A DNA stretch of 64,000 nucleotides from Methanobrevibacter millerae (GTDB taxonomy: Archaea > Methanobacteriota > Methanobacteria > Methanobacteriales > Methanobacteriaceae): positions 1,720,001-1,784,000 of the forward strand of contig NZ_CP011266.1 of the NCBI RefSeq assembly GCF_001477655.1. The letters run 5' to 3'. The notes under the pieces are model-generated. The model was not told the DNA's origin. It was given only the letters and a program-made list of their open reading frames with translations, and did no database searches. The position numbers and the translations under genes were made by a program. This document shows, piece by piece, positions 4,708 to 15,780 of the stretch; position 1 is the stretch's first letter; every line of letters begins with the position of its first letter.

Positions 4708-5106
4708 ATGACAACATCAATATTATTAGATACAAACATCATCATTTATCGTGAAGACAATGATGTAATAAAAAAAGACATTCAAGAACTTTCAAAAATT
4801 TTACATAAAGAAGATTTCAAAATTTATGTTCATGAAAATTCTTTTAATGATATAAACAATGATAAAAACGATGAAAGAAAAGAAATAATGTCCTCAAAAA
4901 TGAATACATATCCAATTCTCAAAACTAAATATAATTTTCAAGATGATGAAGATTTTTTAAGCATAGTTGGATATAAAGAAAACACCCATGATTTTGTAGA
5001 TAATTCTTTATTATATTCAATATTAAAAGGAGAATGTACTTTTCTAATAACAAATGATAATGGAATTCACAAAAAAGCAAAAAAAGTTAGACCATATCGA
5101 ACCTAA
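4708..5106 (+). CDS. PIN-domain module, first half of a frameshifted PIN-GNAT-PUA gene
   Basis: PIN-type RNase domain of 132 codons. The acidic metal-binding residues expected of the fold are present: Asp8 in LLDTN, Glu43, Asp98 in FVDNS and Asp117 in ITNDNG. The last correct residues are IHKKAKK; after a run of seven A (5079-5085) the frame ends quickly at TAA. Reading one base further on joins this domain to the next frame as IHKKAKK-LDHIEPNF, a natural continuation of a PIN protein, so both frames appear to be one original gene. The preceding sequence CGGGGTAATA supplies a ribosome binding site. Biological role is inferred to be toxin- or defence-like RNA cleavage. Confidence 0.65.
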   Translation: MTTSILLDTNIIIYREDNDVIKKDIQELSKILHKEDFKIYVHENSFNDINNDKNDERKEIMSSKMNTYPILKTKYNFQDDEDFLSIVGYKENTHDFVDNSLLYSILKGECTFLITNDNGIHKKAKKVRPYRT

Positions 5107-6190
5107 TTTCAGCGAAAGAATCTTTAACACACAAGAATTAATCAATAATTTCAAAGAATATACTCCGAAATATCCATACATTATTGAAAAAACAACAATG
5201 GATTATTTAAATATCAATGATCCTCTCTTTGACAAATTAAAAAGAGATTATGAAGAGTTTGAAGGTTGGTTTAAATCCAAACAATCAGAAAAAAGGAATT
5301 GTTTAGTTTATAATAAACCAGATAAAAGTCATGGTGCATTATTAATCTATAAAAAAGAAGATGAAACAATACCTCTGGATAATAAAATATTGCCCATAAA
5401 AAATAGAGTAAAAATTGCAACAATGATTGTAACCAGCGAAGGTTATAAGATTGGAGAATTCTTATTAAAATGGATAATAGATTATGCTTTGAAAAATAAC
5501 CTAGATGAACTCTATTTGACCCATTTTGAAGAAGAAGATGATTCTCTAATTTATCTAATTAAAGAATATGGATTCCAGTTAGAAGGAAAAAATAACAGAG
5601 GAGAGGTTGTTTATGTAAAATCTATTAATAAATCTCAAATTACTCAAAACATTGAAAATGAAATTCATCAGAATTCTCCATTAAAAATTGATAAAAAGTA
5701 TTATCCATATTTCTATGATGGGCTAGAAGTAAAAAAATTCATAGTACCTATTAAAGAGGAGTATCATGAGAAATTATTCTTATCTAACCCTGAACAAAGT
5801 GCATTATTCGGCCACATTACAATTTCAAATAACACCATTAAAAAAGCATATTTATCCAAAGCAAGAATTAATGTAAAAGAGGGAGATGTTCTTTTATTTT
5901 ATGAAACTCCTAAAAAAGGCATTTCCCAAATAGGTATTGTTGAATCTTCCAATAAAGATTTAAATATAGAAAACATAAATAAAACTGTAGGAAAACGATC
6001 AGTTTATTCACAGAATGAATTGAAAAATTTTGAAGGAAAAAATTTAGTGATTCTATTTATACACACAAAAGAATTTGACAAGATTCCTTATGAAACATTG
6101 AAAAAAGAAGGCATTATTAAAGGTGCTCCACAATCAATTCAAAGTCTAGAGCATGAAAAATATTTAAAACTAAAAAAGATGATAAAATGA
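5054..6190 (+). CDS. GNAT acetyltransferase plus PUA-like (EVE/ASCH-type) domains, second half of the frameshifted gene
   Basis: 378-codon frame overlapping the PIN frame by 53 bases. Residues about 50-190 look like a GNAT acetyltransferase, with the cofactor loop region IATMIVTSEGYKIGEFLLKW. Residues about 225-378 look like a PUA-superfamily EVE or ASCH domain, with GDVLLFYETPKKGISQIGIVE as its core; such domains bind modified bases or RNA. Residues 11-30 (LDHIEP to ELI) read as the end of a PIN domain, so this is the +1 continuation of the preceding gene. It could be made by +1 frameshifting, by transcript slippage on A7, or by re-initiation at ATG 5054; otherwise the gene is broken. The next gene overlaps its stop (ATGA). 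Confidence 0.6.
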   Translation: MIMEFTKKQKKLDHIEPNFSERIFNTQELINNFKEYTPKYPYIIEKTTMDYLNINDPLFDKLKRDYEEFEGWFKSKQSEKRNCLVYNKPDKSHGALLIYKKEDETIPLDNKILPIKNRVKIATMIVTSEGYKIGEFLLKWIIDYALKNNLDELYLTHFEEEDDSLIYLIKEYGFQLEGKNNRGEVVYVKSINKSQITQNIENEIHQNSPLKIDKKYYPYFYDGLEVKKFIVPIKEEYHEKLFLSNPEQSALFGHITISNNTIKKAYLSKARINVKEGDVLLFYETPKKGISQIGIVESSNKDLNIENINKTVGKRSVYSQNELKNFEGKNLVILFIHTKEFDKIPYETLKKEGIIKGAPQSIQSLEHEKYLKLKKMIK

Positions 6191-6588
6191 ATCTTTTAAT
6201 ATCAATTAAACCCGAATTTGTTAAAAAAATATTGGCTTATGAGAAATTATATGAATTTAGAAAATCTATTTTCAAAGAGGATGTTGATAAAATTTTCATT
6301 TACTCAACATATCCTGTCAAAAAAATCGTCGGTTATTTTGAAGTGAACGAAATAATATGTGAATCACCACAGGAATTATGGAATTCATTTTCCGAAGTTT
6401 CAGGAATTTCAAAAAAAGATTTTTTCAAATATTACGCCAATTCAAATGAAGGTTTTGCAATAAAAATTGATAATTTACACATTTTTGAAGAGTACATTGA
6501 CATGAGCCAATATGATGATTTTAGAGCACCCCAATCATTTTGTTATGTTGAAAATAATAAGTGTCTAAGGGAATTATTATTAGTTTAA
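6187..6588 (+). CDS. ASCH-domain protein (PUA superfamily)
   Basis: 133-residue single-domain protein. Its beginning, ISIKPEFVKKILAYEKLYEF followed by RK, is the ASCH signature (strand, helix, then the E-x-R motif), and the segment VDKIFIYSTYPVKKIVGYFE is the next conserved block. ASCH domains are predicted RNA- or nucleotide-binding modules, and some are hydrolases or regulators. The ATG overlaps the stop codon of the GNAT/PUA frame by four bases, implying translational coupling, so it probably works with that protein. It is the last gene before repeat copy B. Function is not established beyond the family. Confidence 0.7.
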   Translation: MNLLISIKPEFVKKILAYEKLYEFRKSIFKEDVDKIFIYSTYPVKKIVGYFEVNEIICESPQELWNSFSEVSGISKKDFFKYYANSNEGFAIKIDNLHIFEEYIDMSQYDDFRAPQSFCYVENNKCLRELLLV

Positions 6589-6670
6589 TAGCTAAATTTT
6601 AAAAATAAGCCAATTTAATCTTATTTTAAATTTTTTTATAATATGATATTTTATAAAATTAATTATATTG

Positions 6671-7063
6671 AAAAAAGCTATGTATAATAGGTTTGATAAT
6701 GCAAATAATTTCTCTAGCAGTATTTGTTTATCTCGGTTACACAAAAGTCAGTCTCATAAGATATGAAAACCTGCCGAACATGTTTATGGGAGTCGGACTG
6801 TTCCTGTTCGTAATGTGTCTTGCAGATTAAATAAATTCGACCCAATCAAAGACAATTTCATCGCAAAGGCGATACTCTCCCTAAGCGTTTGCAGCTACGC
6901 AGTGTACTTTTCACACACAATAGTCGTAAAGGAACTTTCTTATCACAATCCCTGATCCAACATGTTATTCCCCGTAATGTTTGTGCTGATAGTATTTTTA
7001 AGCTGGCTTTTACCTTATGTGTTAAGCAAGATTCGATACGTCAAGACTTTCAGTGGGGTTTAA
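6671..7063 (+). pseudogene. Decayed 3-prime end of an acyltransferase-3 gene
   Basis: Remnant of the C-terminal third of an acyltransferase-3. In translation it gives stretches such as LSVCSYAVYFSHTIVVKELS and LSWLLPYVLSKIRYVKTFSG, matching the intact gene at 2828-3817 closely. The frame is broken near 6825, where the word gacagactaaacagattcga of the intact gene is shortened, and by an in-frame TGA at about 6954-6956. There is no start region. The homology continues past the old stop codon (7061-7063) into non-coding DNA to about 7266. Confidence 0.8.
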
Positions 7064-7266
7064 CTACCACATTATTTTTACTAATTATCAAAATTTTAGA
7101 AAATCATGTACATTTCATATCAATTAATGATGCAAAAAATAAATAAAAATAATATAATAAAAAGTAGCTTCAATAAAATTAATTAATATCTAATTAACCA
7201 TCGAAATTATAATGCAGAAAATTAATTATTCGAGTACAAATTTTTTTGATGTATGAAGTTTTGTTA
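6671..7266 (+). repeat. Island direct repeat, copy B
   Basis: Degenerate copy of 3425-4016 in the same orientation, including the non-coding part after the old stop codon (taactaccacattattttta, then aattatcaaaatttta and the tract ending gaagttttgtta). Similarity extends slightly upstream of 6700 (AGCTATG, AGGT, ATAAT words in the same order). Boundaries are by eye. Confidence 0.7.
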
Positions 7267-7458
7267 AGGTGCGTATAAAAATCCCACAGCATTGCAAGAA
7301 AAAAATTATAAAACAATGGATTTACTCATACTCTTAATTATCATATCAAAATTTCTACTCTACTTTTTCATCAATTACGACAATTAAAAGTAAAACAACT
7401 AATTTTAAAGATTAATTAGTTAAACCTATTAAACGTTTAAATATTTTAAGTAAAATTA

Positions 7459-8907
7459 TCACCTACCCAACAAATTCTCTTCAAAACGATTCAAAAAGTT
7501 TTCTTCATCAATATCTAAAAATTTTTTAAACAAAACAAATTCTTCATAAAATTCATTATAATTCTCTTTAATTTCATCATCATCCAAATGATTGAATTCA
7601 TAAATGACACTGAAAATGAATAATTTAGAGTAGTATACAAAAAATTTATTTCTGTGATGTGTGATATTATATGACCATTCACTATCTAAATTTTTAAGTT
7701 TAACGAATAATTCTTTCATTGAATCCAATAATTTCTTATTATCATATTTATAGTAATAATAATGAATTATAAAATTACAATAATCTGTGCAAAGAATATT
7801 TAAAGCCATTTTTTTCTCATTTAACGAATTTAAAAGGTGATTATTCCATTTATTATAAATTAACTCGAAAATATATTTAGAATTTTCACATTCATTACAT
7901 TTATTTAACATTTTTGTCCTAACATTAATTTCACTAATATAATCACTCAGTTGAATTGAATCAATTAATATATTTAAATCATCTTTAGATAATTCACAAA
8001 ACATTCCACCCATTATCTCGTTGAAAAACTCATCATGCATAAAAATATCCATGAGTCCTTTAAAGAGAGTTTTATTCAAATGATAAAGTTGAATACACAT
8101 ATTTACAATAATATCATAATAATCATCAATATCATCCGAAGATACACTTAAAAACTTCATTAAAAAACAAAACAATGTTTTTTCTTTAATTTTATCATGT
8201 TTAATGAAAAATGAATTTATTTGATTAAAAGACATGCATTTTATAATTAAAACCAAAGAAAATACATTATCCGAATCCAATAACCTTTCAAATAAATCAA
8301 AATTATATTCATGTAACACATAAATCATTTGATAAAAATGATTAGGCAAGATAAATTTATTATTTTTTATTAATGGATTATATTTTTTAAAATCTATTTG
8401 TCTTAATGAAGTAATTAAAGTCTCTTCCTCATTAAGAGAGTTTAATTTATCAAAATACATCACTAAAACTTCATCAGCAGCTTGAATTTTAATGTTATTC
8501 AAAATTTCAAATATTATTAGAAGAATTTCATTAAATCGCTCATCTAAATCCTGTTTATTAACCAATTCTCCAATAGGCAAATCGATTAAACTATTAGCAT
8601 GTAAAAATATGAAAAAATAAACTATATTAATTTCATTTAGACCCTTTTGAAATATGGAAATTAATGATTTTATAATAGCTACTTTTTTTTCGATTGAATC
8701 CACAATAAAAACATTATTATCTATTTTGTTAATTAATTTGTTTAATAAAACACGCAAATCTAAATTTTCACTATTTCCAACATATTCCATATAAATAAAA
8801 TCTTCAGAAGAAAATTTAGATAAATCTTCAATAATCAAATTTAAATCATTATCTGATGAAATTTGATTAAACTCTTCCAAATTATTTATTATTTTGGATA
8901 TTTCCAT
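7459..8907 (-). CDS. Large all-helical protein, partner of the PLD-like gene
   Basis: About 482 residues with no recognised family. It is rich in Leu, Ile, Asn and acidic residues and looks all-alpha, like a helical solenoid. No signal peptide, membrane segment or catalytic motif is apparent. I place the start at the ATG at 8907, preceded by AAAGGGGAATTTAAT with a good ribosome binding site, rather than nine codons further up. That start overlaps the end of the upstream PLD-like gene by 19 bases, so the two are translationally coupled and likely form one complex. A scaffold or sensor role is a guess from shape and coupling alone. Confidence 0.7.
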   Translation of the reverse strand: MEISKIINNLEEFNQISSDNDLNLIIEDLSKFSSEDFIYMEYVGNSENLDLRVLLNKLINKIDNNVFIVDSIEKKVAIIKSLISIFQKGLNEINIVYFFIFLHANSLIDLPIGELVNKQDLDERFNEILLIIFEILNNIKIQAADEVLVMYFDKLNSLNEEETLITSLRQIDFKKYNPLIKNNKFILPNHFYQMIYVLHEYNFDLFERLLDSDNVFSLVLIIKCMSFNQINSFFIKHDKIKEKTLFCFLMKFLSVSSDDIDDYYDIIVNMCIQLYHLNKTLFKGLMDIFMHDEFFNEIMGGMFCELSKDDLNILIDSIQLSDYISEINVRTKMLNKCNECENSKYIFELIYNKWNNHLLNSLNEKKMALNILCTDYCNFIIHYYYYKYDNKKLLDSMKELFVKLKNLDSEWSYNITHHRNKFFVYYSKLFIFSVIYEFNHLDDDEIKENYNEFYEEFVLFKKFLDIDEENFLNRFEENLLGR

Positions 8908-10445
8908 ATTAAATTCCCCTTTGATTTTTCCCAAATTTTATCAAAAACTGTAACAACCGCTCGAGGATGTGAAACTTCTTGTAAAATATGATAGTTATGT
9001 CCAAATGAATTTAAAGACGTTCCAAGAGAATAAACCTTAGGTTGTTCATATTTTTCTGAGTTACCTGGAAAAATTAAAAAACGATCGTGTGCCTTTTGAC
9101 TTTGTTGAATCCTAAATTCTAAATTTAAACCTTCAAAATTACTATTTAAATTTGAAAATAAATTTTTTTGATTGATCAATTCATCATTATTTAATTTATT
9201 GGATCCTAATGCTTTCAAAGCGACATCCTCAAAAGGACAATAGAATAAAGTGTTAACAATACCATTGAAGCTTAAAAATGGATCCCACAAATATACTCCA
9301 TTTTTACCATTTTCACGAATCAATCTTCTTAAATCACGAATGCCTTCAGATTTATCCTTAAATGGGGTATACTGCTTAAACGATAATGTTTCTTCAAGTA
9401 ATTCTTTTTCTTTAATACCTATTGAGTTTTGAATATACTGATAATATTCTTGATTTTTAACTGATGAATCAGAATTTTTTGAATTTGAACTAATATATGA
9501 GTCAAAATCTTTTGAATTTAAACTAATAACCTCTTTTTCATTATTATTCATGAAAAATCTTTTATGTTGAATATCAATCCACATTGACAATCCAATCGAT
9601 TTTATAGAATAACCCGAATTGGAATATAATAATAATCTTGGATTTTCTCTCCAAATCTTCACATTTACTAATGAATCAACATTACCCACATTCACTTCTT
9701 GAAAGCCATTGCCACAATATTCTTCAAAATTAGTACCAAGATAGTTGTTATCCAGTATAGAGTCAACTTCTAAAATACAATCAGGACAATTATCATTGAT
9801 TAAATGATGCCAATCTAAATTAAAATTTAGAGAATCCCCTGAATCTGATGCAATTTCTGTTTTAACATGTAATATATTGACTGGAAATTGAAAAATAAAG
9901 TTTCCTAACCTATCCCTTACATTAAATAAATTTATAGGAAGAATTTTATTAATTTTTTTAGATACCTTTTCAAAATGTTCTTCGTCTTCCGTGAGAAATT
10001 CAAACTGCTTTTTTTCATCAAAAAATTCTAGAATATATGAACCAGAATAAAAGTTATTTTTCAAAATATAATTTAACCTGTTATCTTCAATAGATGGAAT
10101 AAATTGTTTATTAAGCCTTCTTAAACATTTATCCTTGATGGAATATTCTCCTTTACGATTAGAAATCCATTTGTATTCATGGAGAAGTTTTTCAAAATTC
10201 TCTTTAATTTCTGCTAAAGTTAATTCATATTGAAAAATACCCATTGAACAATCATCAATGTCTATCCTCTTAAAGAATCTATCATACTTATGTTTTTTTG
10301 GAGTTACATTTTTTTCTTGAAAAACACAAATGGTAAATAAATTATAAATTTTATTTGATGGTTCCATAACCACTAATTCAGTTACTTCACAACTATTATA
10401 AATTCCAACATTTCCTTTTTTAGATAATAAATCATATTCATCCAT
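8889..10445 (-). CDS. PLD-like domain protein, possibly VPA1262-type
   Basis: 518 residues. The C-terminal third resembles the phospholipase D-like nuclease fold: GVYLWDPFLSF near residue 390, then AHDRFLIF near residue 453 and SLGTSLNSFG near residue 475. HDR with the downstream GTSLN corresponds to the HxK(R)...GSxN signature of PLD-like domains in some prokaryotic defence proteins, here with Arg in the Lys place and only one full motif. The N-terminal two thirds are not recognised with certainty; the order of domains recalls proteins named VPA1262 family, which I could not verify. It forms a two-gene unit with the helical protein overlapping its end. Probably cytoplasmic; no signal sequence. 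Confidence 0.6.
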   Translation of the reverse strand: MDEYDLLSKKGNVGIYNSCEVTELVVMEPSNKIYNLFTICVFQEKNVTPKKHKYDRFFKRIDIDDCSMGIFQYELTLAEIKENFEKLLHEYKWISNRKGEYSIKDKCLRRLNKQFIPSIEDNRLNYILKNNFYSGSYILEFFDEKKQFEFLTEDEEHFEKVSKKINKILPINLFNVRDRLGNFIFQFPVNILHVKTEIASDSGDSLNFNLDWHHLINDNCPDCILEVDSILDNNYLGTNFEEYCGNGFQEVNVGNVDSLVNVKIWRENPRLLLYSNSGYSIKSIGLSMWIDIQHKRFFMNNNEKEVISLNSKDFDSYISSNSKNSDSSVKNQEYYQYIQNSIGIKEKELLEETLSFKQYTPFKDKSEGIRDLRRLIRENGKNGVYLWDPFLSFNGIVNTLFYCPFEDVALKALGSNKLNNDELINQKNLFSNLNSNFEGLNLEFRIQQSQKAHDRFLIFPGNSEKYEQPKVYSLGTSLNSFGHNYHILQEVSHPRAVVTVFDKIWEKSKGNLIWKYPK

Positions 10446-10616
10446 AATATTACTATACGATTTTTATTTAAAAATATTATATGTTAATATATTAACACGA
10501 TTCATTTAATCTTAAAAATTAATTTTTATTCATGAATTTAACTAAAAAATATATTCATCAAAGCCAACAAAATTTCTAGAAAAGATTATAAATATAAAGT
10601 CAATTTTTCAAATATA

Positions 10617-11807
10617 TCACAATATTGGATATTTTAATAAACCAATTTCATCTTTAAACATCTCTTTAATTTCTTCACAGGTTATATTATCCTTTTTAAA
10701 TTCATCATATATTTCTAATAAGCTTTCAACAGTTATTATTAATATTCCATATTTAGTTTTTGCTAGTTCAATTTGTTCATTTTCAACAGGTTTTCTTTTT
10801 TCAGGAGAATATTTCCTAAAACGATTAATTATCAATAAAGGTTTAAGATTTTCACAATTATTTAAATCTCTTCTTTTTTCATAGTTTAAGTTTAATTCAC
10901 CCAAATGACTATTTATTAAATTCCTACTTACACCTTTTATTTCCCCAATAAAAGTTATATCTGGAAATTCAATTAAAAAATCTTCATTTCCAATATCTTT
11001 AAATTTAGACAAATCTTTTTTTAACATATCTTGAAGAATATCTCTTACAACTTTTTCTAAAGGTTTTCCTTGCTCATATAATATGGATTTATAGTAATTA
11101 TTCTCTTGAAGTTTAGTTTCTGAAATAGAAATTTCTTTTTCTAATGAAAGTATTTGTTGTTTATTATTGTCTATCAATGATTTTTGTTCTTTATCATCAA
11201 ACATTTCAATATTATCAAACCATTTGGGAATATTTTCATTTGTTTCAAAAATTAAATTAATAAAATTTTCTATGTCCTGTCCATTATGTAATTGTAATGT
11301 AGTTAAAGTAATATTTCTTCTTTTAATTGTTGTAGGTTTTTTAATTATATTTTTAGTTATAATATTAAAATTAGATATTTCTTTAAAATAAAAATCAGCT
11401 TCTAAATTATAATCCCCAAAATTAGTTTCATTTTTTCCATAAGACAAAATAATCTTAGCAATATTAAAATAATCTCTTAAAAAAGTTGTTATTATTTCAG
11501 AATCATTTTTTAATTGATTATTTTCATTTTGAAGATAACTTTCAAGAACATATTCATCATTTGAAGGTAGTATTATAATTATATTATCATTTTCAGATAT
11601 TGTTTCCGTTAATGTTTTAATATTTTTATCTTCTTTAAATTTCCGTTCTTCTGTATTATAAATCCATAATTCCTTTAAATTTAAATCAATTATATTATAA
11701 TCAAATAATTCAATATCACTGAAACTATGTATACTAGATAATGTTATATCTAAATTATTGAGATTATAATATCCATTATTATTAATTAATTGGATTTTTT
11801 TCATCAT
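10617..11807 (-). CDS. PD-(D/E)xK nuclease-fold protein with coiled coil
   Basis: 396 residues. Residues about 205-240 are a heptad-like helix (QKSLIDNNKQQILSLEKEI), followed by a restriction-endonuclease-like domain: Glu251 in the first helix (PLEKVVRDIL), Asp283 in EFPDITF, and Glu289 and Lys291 in GEIKG. These fit the E...D...ExK pattern of the Mrr/COG-type nucleases. The N-terminal 200 residues are unrecognised; they include a hydrophobic strand IIIILPSND like a Rossmann-type strand. It stands alone between AT-rich gaps of 88 and 171 bases. A DNA-cleaving defence role is likely but not shown. The second M is an equally good start. Confidence 0.6.
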   Translation of the reverse strand: MMKKIQLINNNGYYNLNNLDITLSSIHSFSDIELFDYNIIDLNLKELWIYNTEERKFKEDKNIKTLTETISENDNIIIILPSNDEYVLESYLQNENNQLKNDSEIITTFLRDYFNIAKIILSYGKNETNFGDYNLEADFYFKEISNFNIITKNIIKKPTTIKRRNITLTTLQLHNGQDIENFINLIFETNENIPKWFDNIEMFDDKEQKSLIDNNKQQILSLEKEISISETKLQENNYYKSILYEQGKPLEKVVRDILQDMLKKDLSKFKDIGNEDFLIEFPDITFIGEIKGVSRNLINSHLGELNLNYEKRRDLNNCENLKPLLIINRFRKYSPEKRKPVENEQIELAKTKYGILIITVESLLEIYDEFKKDNITCEEIKEMFKDEIGLLKYPIL

Positions 11808-11895: not shown

Positions 11896-13146
11896 TTACA
11901 TAAAATTTGCATAATCTTGTAAATTATTAACTTCACCATAATAATCAATTAAAAATCCAATTAAAATTTCAGAAAGAATTTTGACTATAGATTGGTCAGA
12001 CTGAGTAATTTCACCATGAATATTTTCATGAACTAAATCATTACGTTTAGATTTAATGAATTTTAATCTCTGAATAATTTTCTTAGGATAATTATACATC
12101 TGTAATATTTTTTCCATATATTTTACTAATAGTTTATCTGCCATACCCACATGAATATCCTTAATTATTCGTTCACTTAAAGACCAAAATTTCAAAAATG
12201 AATTCTCTATAGAACTTTCTAATGATGAAATGTAATATAAACTAAAATAATCTTTTAACTGATCAAATAAAATATTATTATTAATTTTATAAACATCTTC
12301 CAATAAAGTAGGAACAAGTTTCATCTGATTATCAAATTTAATAATTTTAGATTTGTCTAATTTAATAGCTGTATCCATAACATCTTGTTGATGAATAATA
12401 TCGAAAATATTATTGTTTGAATCCGTCGCAATTAAAGCATTAATTTTTAAATCAGTTATTTTATTATCTAATGTTATTTCATTAATATGAAATTTTTCAG
12501 TGCCATTTTTATACTTATGAATATAAGTCACATATCCAAAAAACGAATAAATCTTGTTAAATGTATTATTTTTAATATATTCATAATCTTTACCCCTTTT
12601 TGAATATTTTAACATCAAAAATTTACTATTAAATTTATTTTTAATATCATAATCACAATCTTCTTCATTTTCAAAGTTATATTCAGAATAATCAAAAATA
12701 GATAAATTAAAATATTTTAATGCATCTCTAAATTTATTATTTTCCTCCAACTTTTTTGGAATATTAGTATAAATTATAATATTAATTATCTCTTCATCCA
12801 TTTTTTTATACTCTAAAATGAGATTATTTAATTCTTGTAAAAAATTATCCAAAACAACTTCTTGAGAACTATCTTCAATATTTCTTAAAATATTTGAAAT
12901 GTTACTTATAAACACCATTTTAGATAAACCCTGACTTTCAAAAACATTATTAATATTTGATTTCCACCCCATACAATCCCAAAGTGTTTCATAGTAATAT
13001 CTTGAATCATACGTAGTGTTAATTGATTCAATACTATTTAAAAGAGTTTGTTCTATATGATATCTCTTACGTACAGTATATTTAATCTCACTATCTGAAT
13101 CCATATACATCACACAATATTTTAAATATCCAATATCACATACCAA
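11896..13146 (-). CDS. HEPN-type protein (RN-x2-VH motif), putative RNase
   Basis: 416 residues. The C-terminal helical region from about 310 resembles the HEPN domains of ApeA-like abortive-infection proteins: FWSLSERIIKD near residue 325, then KRNDLVHE with Arg368 and His373 as the R-x4-H active-site motif. HEPN domains with this motif are usually metal-independent RNases. The N-terminal part is unrecognised and shows no membrane segment. It is transcribed in the same direction as the PD-(D/E)xK gene 88 bases downstream, so they may share a transcript. A role in phage defence or as a toxin is inferred from the motif and the neighbourhood. Confidence 0.6.
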   Translation of the reverse strand: MVCDIGYLKYCVMYMDSDSEIKYTVRKRYHIEQTLLNSIESINTTYDSRYYYETLWDCMGWKSNINNVFESQGLSKMVFISNISNILRNIEDSSQEVVLDNFLQELNNLILEYKKMDEEIINIIIYTNIPKKLEENNKFRDALKYFNLSIFDYSEYNFENEEDCDYDIKNKFNSKFLMLKYSKRGKDYEYIKNNTFNKIYSFFGYVTYIHKYKNGTEKFHINEITLDNKITDLKINALIATDSNNNIFDIIHQQDVMDTAIKLDKSKIIKFDNQMKLVPTLLEDVYKINNNILFDQLKDYFSLYYISSLESSIENSFLKFWSLSERIIKDIHVGMADKLLVKYMEKILQMYNYPKKIIQRLKFIKSKRNDLVHENIHGEITQSDQSIVKILSEILIGFLIDYYGEVNNLQDYANFM

Positions 13147-13578: not shown

Positions 13579-14295
13579 CTAAGATTGGGCGCTTAACTGT
13601 GACTGGTATGCATCCCTTTCTGCTTGGGTTGCATATCTGCTTCCGTCTTCAGCAGCATAAGGATGTGATTCACGGTAACTCATCATCTGTTCATGAGCCT
13701 CCCATTCCTCATCTGATACTCCTGCAGGCTTAGTGTTGGAACTATCAGAACTTGTTGTATTTTTAACAGTGTTCGTATTAACAGTTTTGCTGTCAGAAGT
13801 ATTATTTGTATCCTTCGTATTATTGCTAAATTTTACTGAAGACACAATCTTTTTAAGCATTTCCAGATCTTTGCATGCAATCACAATATTGTCATGTGTA
13901 GTGTTGTTAACCAGTTTTGCGCTGTAGTATCCATTGCACTTGTACAATGAAAAACCGTTGATGATTTCAAGATTTTCTCCAACTGTCAGACCGTCACGAA
14001 TGGTTGCAAATGCAACAGCACCACCTAAAGCATTGTTATTGGCTCCAAATGCATCCTGACTATTATAGGATACAATTTCAATACCATTTTTGGTGTCATT
14101 GTAAAGTTTAATTGTATCTGCATACAATGTCATATTTGTATCCGATTCTACAACATCAGCAGTACATGTACTTGAAAGTGCAATCGTTTTCATATTTTGT
14201 GACTGCGAAAACATTCCTGATGTGAATAATACACCAATTGCCAAGAGTATTACTCCAATAACAAGTAAAATTATTATTATGTTTAGCTTTTTCAT
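13579..14295 (-). CDS. Membrane-anchored surface protein
   Basis: 238 residues, with an N-terminal transmembrane helix (about 5-28, IIIILLVIGVILLAIGVLF) and an outside portion of about 210 residues. Residues 35-155 look like a small globular domain (CTADVVESDTNMTLYADTIK and later IVIACKDLEMLKKIVSSVKF). A Thr/Ser/Asn-rich linker of about 30 residues follows, then a C-terminal segment PAGVSDEEWEAHEQMMSYRE. It is upstream of and probably co-transcribed with the short anchored protein after it. Methanobrevibacter genomes carry many such lineage-specific anchored proteins. The domain is not recognised and no role can be assigned. Confidence 0.7.
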   Translation of the reverse strand: MKKLNIIIILLVIGVILLAIGVLFTSGMFSQSQNMKTIALSSTCTADVVESDTNMTLYADTIKLYNDTKNGIEIVSYNSQDAFGANNNALGGAVAFATIRDGLTVGENLEIINGFSLYKCNGYYSAKLVNNTTHDNIVIACKDLEMLKKIVSSVKFSNNTKDTNNTSDSKTVNTNTVKNTTSSDSSNTKPAGVSDEEWEAHEQMMSYRESHPYAAEDGSRYATQAERDAYQSQLSAQS

Positions 14296-14450
14296 TATTA
14301 ATCCCTCTTTAATATTATATTATGTTTAAGTGGTTAATATCTTTTCATCATATGACCGTGCCAATGAATTATAAAAAACATATAACGAAGTTTAAAAATC
14401 CAATTACTATATTAAATAATTCATTCTAGAATCAGACATAATGATTAATT

Positions 14451-14695
14451 ATAGTATTATTAAGCTGGCTTTTACCATACATGTTAAGCAAGATTCCATA
14501 CGTCAAGACTTTCAGTGGTGTTTAACATTAAGTTTTTATTGAAAAAAAATTCATAGTAAATTATGGAGAGTCTTTTTTGTCATCATACATTTTTAAGATT
14601 CTCCATCATCATCCATGTAATTAATGATATATTGAAATGTAAATTCAACCAAATTAAGAATATTATTAACCATGAAATTATATTTAGATGTTCCT
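14451..14695 (+). repeat. Island direct repeat, copy C (short)
   Basis: Shortened copy of the repeat. Positions 14451-14526 match the last 75 bases of the acyltransferase coding region including its TAA (translated LSWLLPYMLSKIPYVKTFSG), and are closer to copy B than to A at several sites. After a gap, 14620-14695 resemble the downstream non-coding tract (atattgaaa-gtaa-ttcaac-aaattaa, then ttaacc-tgaaattata). The part in between has diverged or been replaced. Confidence 0.6.
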
Positions 14696-14704
14696 TGAAA
14701 AGAT

Positions 14705-14935
14705 TTGCTTGACATGGAATATGGTAATAAGAATATTACGTTATCCATTTTAAATAAGCTATGTTCTTTATTTGGATGCAGTGAAAGTTATCTGCTATGT
14801 AGGAGTAGCGAATTTGACTATGAAAAATTTGCACTTAGAAGCACTATCATTGAAACAGATGATCTTGAAGGCATTGCAAGCATGAACCGAATATACATGA
14901 GCATGAAATACATAACAAGCAAAATGGATGATTAA
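14705..14935 (+). pseudogene. Truncated XRE-type HTH regulator
   Basis: 76 codons that correspond to the second half of a Cro/C1-type DNA-binding domain: LDMEYGNKNITLSILNKLCS then LFGCSESYLL is the usual ending of the domain (IExGxxxxSLxxLxKLxxxFxxSxxYLL). The first helices with the turn motif are missing; a stop codon (TGA, 14696-14698) precedes the frame and repeat copy C lies immediately upstream. The only start would be a TTG with no good ribosome binding site. The remnant probably belonged to a restriction-type or toxin-antitoxin controller that was cut when the repeat recombined. Confidence 0.5.
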
Positions 14936-15780
14936 TATAATGCGACAACCAATTAAATACCAAACCATTCAATTACATTAAAAATCGACCCCTCAAAATA
15001 GTTTTATCATTTGTTTTGAAAATAATTTTTAATTAATATTATCAAAAAATAGAAAAAAATTGATAATATAAAGAGATATTAAAAATCAAAATTAATCATT
15101 TATAAAATAACTTAAAATAATTAAAAATAGAATTAATTAAACATGTTCAAAATAAAAAAATATTAAAAATATTATCCATAAATTCAATTAAAATATAGGC
15201 AATGAAAATACTCATATTATCAATCAGAAATTGATAATTGATAACATGAAGATAAAAAATAAAACTAAAAAGAAAAAATAAATTCTTTATATAATTATCA
15301 ACAATAATGAAAATAATCACTAAAGAAATTAAATTTTATAGAGAAAAGTATTGAAATATTAGGCTTAATTAACATTAAAATATATGCAATAAAAATGGAT
15401 ACATTACCACCATATTAATTATAAAAATATAAAATAATATTGTAACCCAAATCGTAATACTGGTGGATTTTTAGTTAATTAAAATAAAAATAGTTAAAAC
15501 AAATATAAGATGTCTAATAGGTTTAAGTCATAGAATAACTTAAAACCCACCACAAAAAATAGACACCATCCATCAATCGTTTATAGAACTAGAAATAAAG
15601 GTTTATTTCAAGTTTAAGATAGCACATGTGAAACTTTCAACAAGAGTTTAACTATATGCTAAATAATAGTTTCTCACCTATCTTTTATAAACATTACTAT
15701 ATTCCAATATTAAAATTAAATTTTATATACATTTAAAAACTAATAAATGATACAATAGAAATATAAAACTTATTCATCAA
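14936..15780. other. Gene-free AT-rich interval with imperfect hairpins
   Basis: 845 bases with no open frame of note. Up to about 15460 it is nearly featureless A/T. From 15465 on there are several imperfect inverted repeats: TGTCTA with TAGACA enclosing GGTTTAAGT with ACTTAAAACC (about 15511-15565), and AAGATAG (15616-15622) with CTATCTT (15678-15684), next to GTGAAAC (15628-15634) and GTTTCTCAC (15669-15677). The word CATCAATCGTTT occurs twice, near 15573 and 15776. A structured RNA is possible. Confidence 0.4.

Follow-up and report, generated by a model that had tools for sequence, protein, structure and literature searches.

Two adjoining genes of a methanogenic archaeon from the gut, designated A and B here, are kept together across Archaea and Bacteria, are horizontally mobile and occur in defence settings. 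We propose, with a probability of roughly 60%, that they form a two-gene antivirus module in which A would be a PLD effector and B a fast-evolving helical sensor or regulator. The window, that is, the whole stretch of DNA that was analysed, comprises 64,000 nucleotides (G000:C1:1720001-1784000) of a 2.54-Mb genome. The features referred to below are the following.

8889..10445, minus strand: gene A, encoding a VPA1262-family protein of 518 aa from an ATG start; an N-terminal mixed domain and a C-terminal PLD-like domain are both predicted.
8892..9366, minus strand: predicted PLD-like domain at the C-terminus of A, residues ~360-518 (AlphaFold2 model, Foldseek, and a weak match to PDC-S05 of PADLOC).
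9276..9287, minus strand: W/I-D-P-[YF] motif, residues 387-390, at strand 1 of the PLD-like domain; D388, P389 and L391 do not vary among the 18 homologues.
9009..9089, minus strand: variant HKD motif, H453-D-R-F-x2-F-P460 (codons 9066-9089) followed by L474-G-x-S-x-N479 (codons 9009-9026); invariant in 18 of 18.
8908..8922, minus strand: ribosome-binding site of B, AAAGGGGAATTTAAT, within the 3' end of A.
8889..8907, minus strand: A/B overlap of 19 bp, identical in length in G078 and G065.
7459..8907, minus strand: gene B, the all-helical partner, 482 aa when read from an ATG; without known family.

The longest open reading frame of B starts from a TTG codon at 8934 and would specify 491 amino acids. 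A Shine-Dalgarno-like sequence, AAAGGGG, is located 8 bases upstream from the ATG at 8907, and corresponding sites are found in relatives: AAAGGAG (AAAGGAGAATTCAAT) in loci L042, L044 and L004, and CCGGAG (CCGGAGAATTTAAT) in locus L041. Since such a site precedes the ATG and is kept in relatives, B was taken to start at 8907, which confirms the same-strand, 19-base overlap proposed from the sequence alone. The overlap suggests translational coupling of the two genes. At most other A-B loci, the genes overlap or nearly touch. In comparison with four congeners, dN/dS was 0.22-0.23 in A and 0.24-0.31 in B, denoting purifying selection on both; thus, A and B are working genes and not chance open reading frames. 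The GC content is 22-26% across the interval between 4 and 16 kb of the window and rises to 31-38% in the remainder, beyond 16 kb. This low-GC island around the pair fits acquired DNA.

Residues 99-506 of A matched the NCBIfam model NF040700 (VPA1262_N_dom) with a score of 181.9 bits (cut-off 80; E 1.9e-53). This bore out the link to the VPA1262 family that the sequence-only reading had mentioned. NF040700 is a named family with no assigned function; a search of Pfam with A returned nothing significant. The closest named relative of A, from a Methanobrevibacter metagenome-assembled genome, is 81% identical, and distant archaeal and bacterial homologues are 27-45% identical. Models of the two proteins were obtained with AlphaFold2, from 6 sequences for A and 5 for B. 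The A model had a mean pLDDT of 46.1, with values of about 51-83 over residues ~360-518 and mostly 54-83 in the blocks starting at residue 350. When the model was compared to the PDB with Foldseek, the best matches were Zucchini (E 9.6e-5), TrmBL2/TrmB, FAM83 and NucT of H. pylori, all with probabilities of 0.99-1.00; the query-normalised TM-scores were low because the C-terminal domain alone is well modelled. Foldseek comparison of the A model to viral models gave nothing, and neither the sequences of A and B nor profiles derived from them found a meaningful match among PDB sequences. On the strength of the model, which reaches moderate confidence in this domain only, the C-terminal region of A is predicted to adopt the PLD fold, and the claim made for it is one of membership in the fold superfamily.

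The alignment of 18 homologues from both domains of life showed D388, P389, L391, H453, D454, R455, F456, F459, P460, L474, G475, S477 and N479 to be invariant in all of them. The two segments that had drawn attention to A, AHDRFLIF and GTSLNSFG, have their His at residue 453 and their start at residue 475, respectively, as had been noted. A predicted PLD fold with an intact His was one of the two points on which the initial proposal had been made to stand or fall, and it held, given the PLD matches in Foldseek and the invariance of H453 in 18 of 18 sequences. The canonical HKD motif, HxKx4Dx6GSxN, marks the catalytic HKD branch and is absent from the non-catalytic PLD-fold families. In A, the Lys is replaced by Arg and the Asp by Pro, and GxSxN follows, so that the sequence departs from the canonical motif. 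The claim for A accordingly extends to the PLD fold superfamily and stops short of the canonical HKD enzymes. Catalysis by A is uncertain because it is the canonical Lys and Asp that are replaced; the altered motif poses a clear enzymological question. The predicted C-terminal fold and the presence of one HKD-type motif per chain are shared with the NucT, Zucchini and Nuc-type PLD nucleases, from which A differs by its large N-terminal domain, its altered motif (HDR...P...GxSxN) and its near-constant helical partner. With a single motif per chain, A would have to dimerise in order to act in the manner of NucT or Zucchini.

No significant match to B was found in Pfam, NCBIfam, PADLOC, PHROGs or PDB sequences, in keeping with the original description of a protein without known domain. 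The B model contains helices only (mean pLDDT 47.5). Foldseek returned no match to it with an E value below 0.7, so no fold is claimed, and profile self-comparison revealed no significant internal repeats. Thus, of the all-helical solenoid initially envisaged, the all-helical part is retained, from a low-confidence model, and the solenoid is unsupported. Conserved residues are few in B and no catalytic signature is apparent. Viral contigs searched with the archaeal B profile contained no B-like genes.

A and B are conserved as a pair. Of the 20 loci that can be read, 18 have B 3' of A; 9 of these are archaeal, and the other 9 come from bacteria, plasmids or phages. Three further loci, which end at a contig edge, are left out of this count. 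Among 152 genomes of the phylum, A-family matches were found in 11 and B matches in 8; all 9 places where B occurs adjoin A, and B was never found alone. In bacteria, B follows A at every locus with readable downstream sequence (9/9). A is followed by a same-strand gene of 450-560 aa on three viral or satellite contigs and on plasmids of Gluconobacter, Rhizobium, Agrobacterium, Vibrio, Aliarcobacter and Bradyrhizobium, the Bradyrhizobium locus having an IS630-type element inserted between A and B. Alignment of archaeal and bacterial B profiles with hhalign (probability 95.5, E 1.5e-8, 268 columns) showed the two groups to be homologous. In hmmsearch, the bacterial B profile recovered archaeal partners with E values from 8e-15 (the G110 protein) to 4e-4, B of the window scoring 1.6e-7; the partner in G043 reached only 0.17 and that in G041 was absent among the matches listed. 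A occurs without B at two loci, in G098 and G078-C3; these are nearly identical versions of a single locus, where A is followed by an FRG-type protein, and in one of them A is split by a frameshift. The sequence-only reading would have been abandoned had homologues of A and B almost never been neighbours; their adjacency at 18 of 20 loci in two domains of life speaks for it. A search of complete E. coli genomes for DNA similarity to the P4-type operon found none, a result that is little informative at such divergence.

The distances among A proteins and among B proteins correlate (Mantel r 0.96 overall, p 0.0002; 0.96 in archaea and 0.71 in bacteria; all p <=0.0006), with the proviso that these p values overstate independence, the genes being related by descent. 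B is more diverged than A in 142 of 142 distant pairs, with a mean identity of 15% as opposed to 30%. Such faster divergence is as expected of a sensor.

The pair is carried by a variety of mobile elements. The genome under study harbours a second, diverged pair at 568.7-571.6 kb (identity to the window pair 32% for A and about 27-29% for B), within a provirus-like element and downstream of integrase, phage-type helicase and tail-fibre-like genes. One gene of this element has 90%-identical copies near the A loci of G041 and G098. Locus L057 is a P4-like satellite in which an integrase (5788-7107) precedes A-B (7123-10111), followed by Psu (10579-11427) and a P4-type primase (13902-15632). The int-psu position of P4-like satellites is a hotspot of antiviral systems (PMC9122126). 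In the prophage at locus L056, A-B adjoins tail genes. Elsewhere the pair adjoins known defence genes: a CBASS cyclase and 4TM effector in L037, Lamassu LmuB and the reverse transcriptase UG36 in L036, Gabija GajAB in L048, and a type II methyltransferase with a restriction enzyme in L041. The setting was judged locus by locus, and the known systems nearby vary between loci. The pair is thus found recurrently in defence islands or hotspots. Its occurrence on mobile elements and next to known defence systems favours a role in defence.

Comparison with described systems brought out partial likenesses. In PADLOC-DB 2.0.0, no system was matched by both genes; B and its homologues matched none, and neither did bacterial A. 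PDC-S05, a phage-defence candidate of PADLOC (a single-gene one, to judge from its name), has a PLD-like domain weakly related to residues 429-505 of A (E 1.5e-4), and a PDC-S05-like protein is picked up, at 2e-5, by a profile built on the A family. However, the match is weak and confined to ~80 residues, and the profiles of PDC-S05, at about 300 aa, are shorter and devoid of the A N-terminal domain. MkoB of the Mokosh system is a PLD nuclease. It shows weak similarity to PDC-S05 members, distant relatives of the A C-terminus (E 0.003), with no match to A or B themselves; also, A-B is without a helicase partner. Hachiman (HamAB) is a two-protein complex of an effector nuclease and a sensor partner (PMC12278908). 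It follows the same two-gene logic as that proposed for A-B, with no sequence relation, and B has no match to a helicase or ATPase family in Pfam, PADLOC or NCBIfam.

The namesake of the family, VPA1262 of Vibrio parahaemolyticus, lies in genomic island VPaI-6. An amplicon of 1851 nt was obtained from inside the gene (PMC1464126). This size, and the designation of the model as an "N-terminal domain", suggest that VPA1262 is longer than A, which ends about 12 residues past the end of its match to NF040700 (model position 477 of 478). VPA1262 may thus carry a partner fused in one chain; in the window the partner of A is a separate gene. Locus L046 (8159-11495, G141) contains a VPA1262-like protein split by a run of N in the assembly, and in its 728-aa part (9309-11495) the frame runs about 520 residues beyond the PLD-like part, possibly making it a single-chain form of the system. 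In locus L043 (8633-10988, G098), a 404-aa PLD relative (9774-10988) with FHDRF and MGTSLNS motifs is followed by a 393-aa protein. In locus L049 (5868-10124, G024), a PLD relative (5868-6989) is broken by a 502-aa transposase-like open reading frame and followed by a 380-aa protein which, by eye, resembles the 393-aa partner of G098. Comparison of B with the 393-aa partner or the G141 extension using hhalign detected no homology (probability below 1%), for which reason these two are called analogous to B at most. In these other PLD-plus-partner cases, the arrangement may have been invented anew, or the partners may be relatives of B too diverged to detect.

We postulate that A is the effector, a PLD-superfamily phosphodiesterase that would most likely be a homodimeric nuclease, its conserved N-terminal domain accompanying the PLD-type effector part. 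B would bind A and either hold it off or switch it on upon an infection cue; activated A would then cut viral or cellular nucleic acid and stop the infection. In this scheme we infer that A is a nuclease, that A and B form a complex, that B senses or regulates, and that the pair protects. What survives of the defence module proposed from the sequence is the predicted PLD fold, the intact His, the recurrent pairing and the defence placement. The wider statement, that a widespread and undescribed immune system of Archaea and Bacteria consists of an altered-site PLD enzyme (H-D-R ... P ... G-x-S-x-N) controlled by a helical sensor, is made tentatively, at a little under even odds.

The same features were weighed against other explanations. 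The two genes form an overlapping operon carried by plasmids, a P4-like satellite and provirus-like elements, and B diverges faster than A. These features would also suit a toxin-antitoxin or addiction module, with A as the toxic enzyme of PLD type and B as its neutraliser, kept mainly for stabilising these elements. We regard this as rather unlikely. With 450-500 aa across loci, B is far larger than usual antitoxins and, at 518 and 482 aa, the two proteins differ from the small toxin and small DNA-binding antitoxin of type II systems; no DNA-binding domain family in Pfam, PADLOC or NCBIfam matched B. Clustering with antiviral systems and occupancy of the int-psu hotspot favour defence, and A is kept without B at two loci, although A is frameshifted at one of them.

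The changes in the HKD motif raise the question of whether A could be an inactive PLD-fold binder of nucleic acid or of a ligand, like the sugar-binding part of TrmB or like FAM83, the effector being B or another protein. TrmB, TrmBL2 and FAM83, all non-catalytic PLD folds, are indeed among the Foldseek matches. Yet five motif residues (His, Arg, Gly, Ser and Asn) do not vary among the 18 sequences, even though distant members are only ~30% identical, a conservation stronger than expected of a dead site. B, in turn, with few conserved positions and without a catalytic signature, has little to qualify it as the effector; we find this explanation improbable. As to A and B acting independently, defence islands do collect unrelated genes and A stands without B in G098 and G078-C3. 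Against such a chance association, the pair is retained at nearly all readable loci in two domains, mostly overlapping or touching, B is found alone in 0 of 152 genomes, and no other neighbour is common to the A-B loci. Mere adjacency is therefore very hard to credit.

The sequence-only reading knew of no described system with this partner, and none emerged: PADLOC has no model for the pair, and the literature searched mentions the family only in Vibrio parahaemolyticus genomics. That subject was the only one in which VPA1262 was encountered, and no paper was found for NF040700, in a search lying outside supplementary tables and most subscription literature. Apparently, then, the A-B pair is undescribed as a two-gene antivirus system, a prior listing being possible. 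If A-B protects against viruses, it would provide a function for a family that NCBI names only by a locus tag, and represent a defence system common to gut methanogens and proteobacteria. It would further offer a simple two-gene construct, including the P4-like satellite version, directly testable in E. coli.

The genes adjoining the pair in the window were considered as further members of the system and rejected, being absent from other A-B loci. Homologues of two of them are present on the provirus-like element of the same genome. One, at 10617-11807, encodes a 396-aa protein with a conserved FLIxFxDITFIGEIKG segment which, by eye, is like the core of PD-(D/E)XK nucleases; it has no family match, and its homologue on the provirus-like element (L065 10643-11818) is 45-47% identical. 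The other, at 11896-13146, encodes 416 aa and carries at the C-terminal end the stretch KRNxLVHE, in which the R-x4-H pattern of HEPN domains can be made out by eye. Its homologues in L049 (10127-11497) and L065 (15928-17304) start with a zinc ribbon, which the window protein either lacks or has in degraded form. Directly downstream of A-B, on the other strand, a three-gene set (4708-6588) corresponds to the PADLOC candidate PDC-M11, with E values of 5e-34 and 1e-182 for M11A profiles and 2e-49 for M11B. The PIN-like first gene of this set is separate; some M11A profiles (about 500 aa) span it and the next gene. FRG-type proteins adjoining A loci (L043 5455-6963 and L047 12160-13647, the latter matching PDC-S15) have a PDC-M11B-like C-terminal end.
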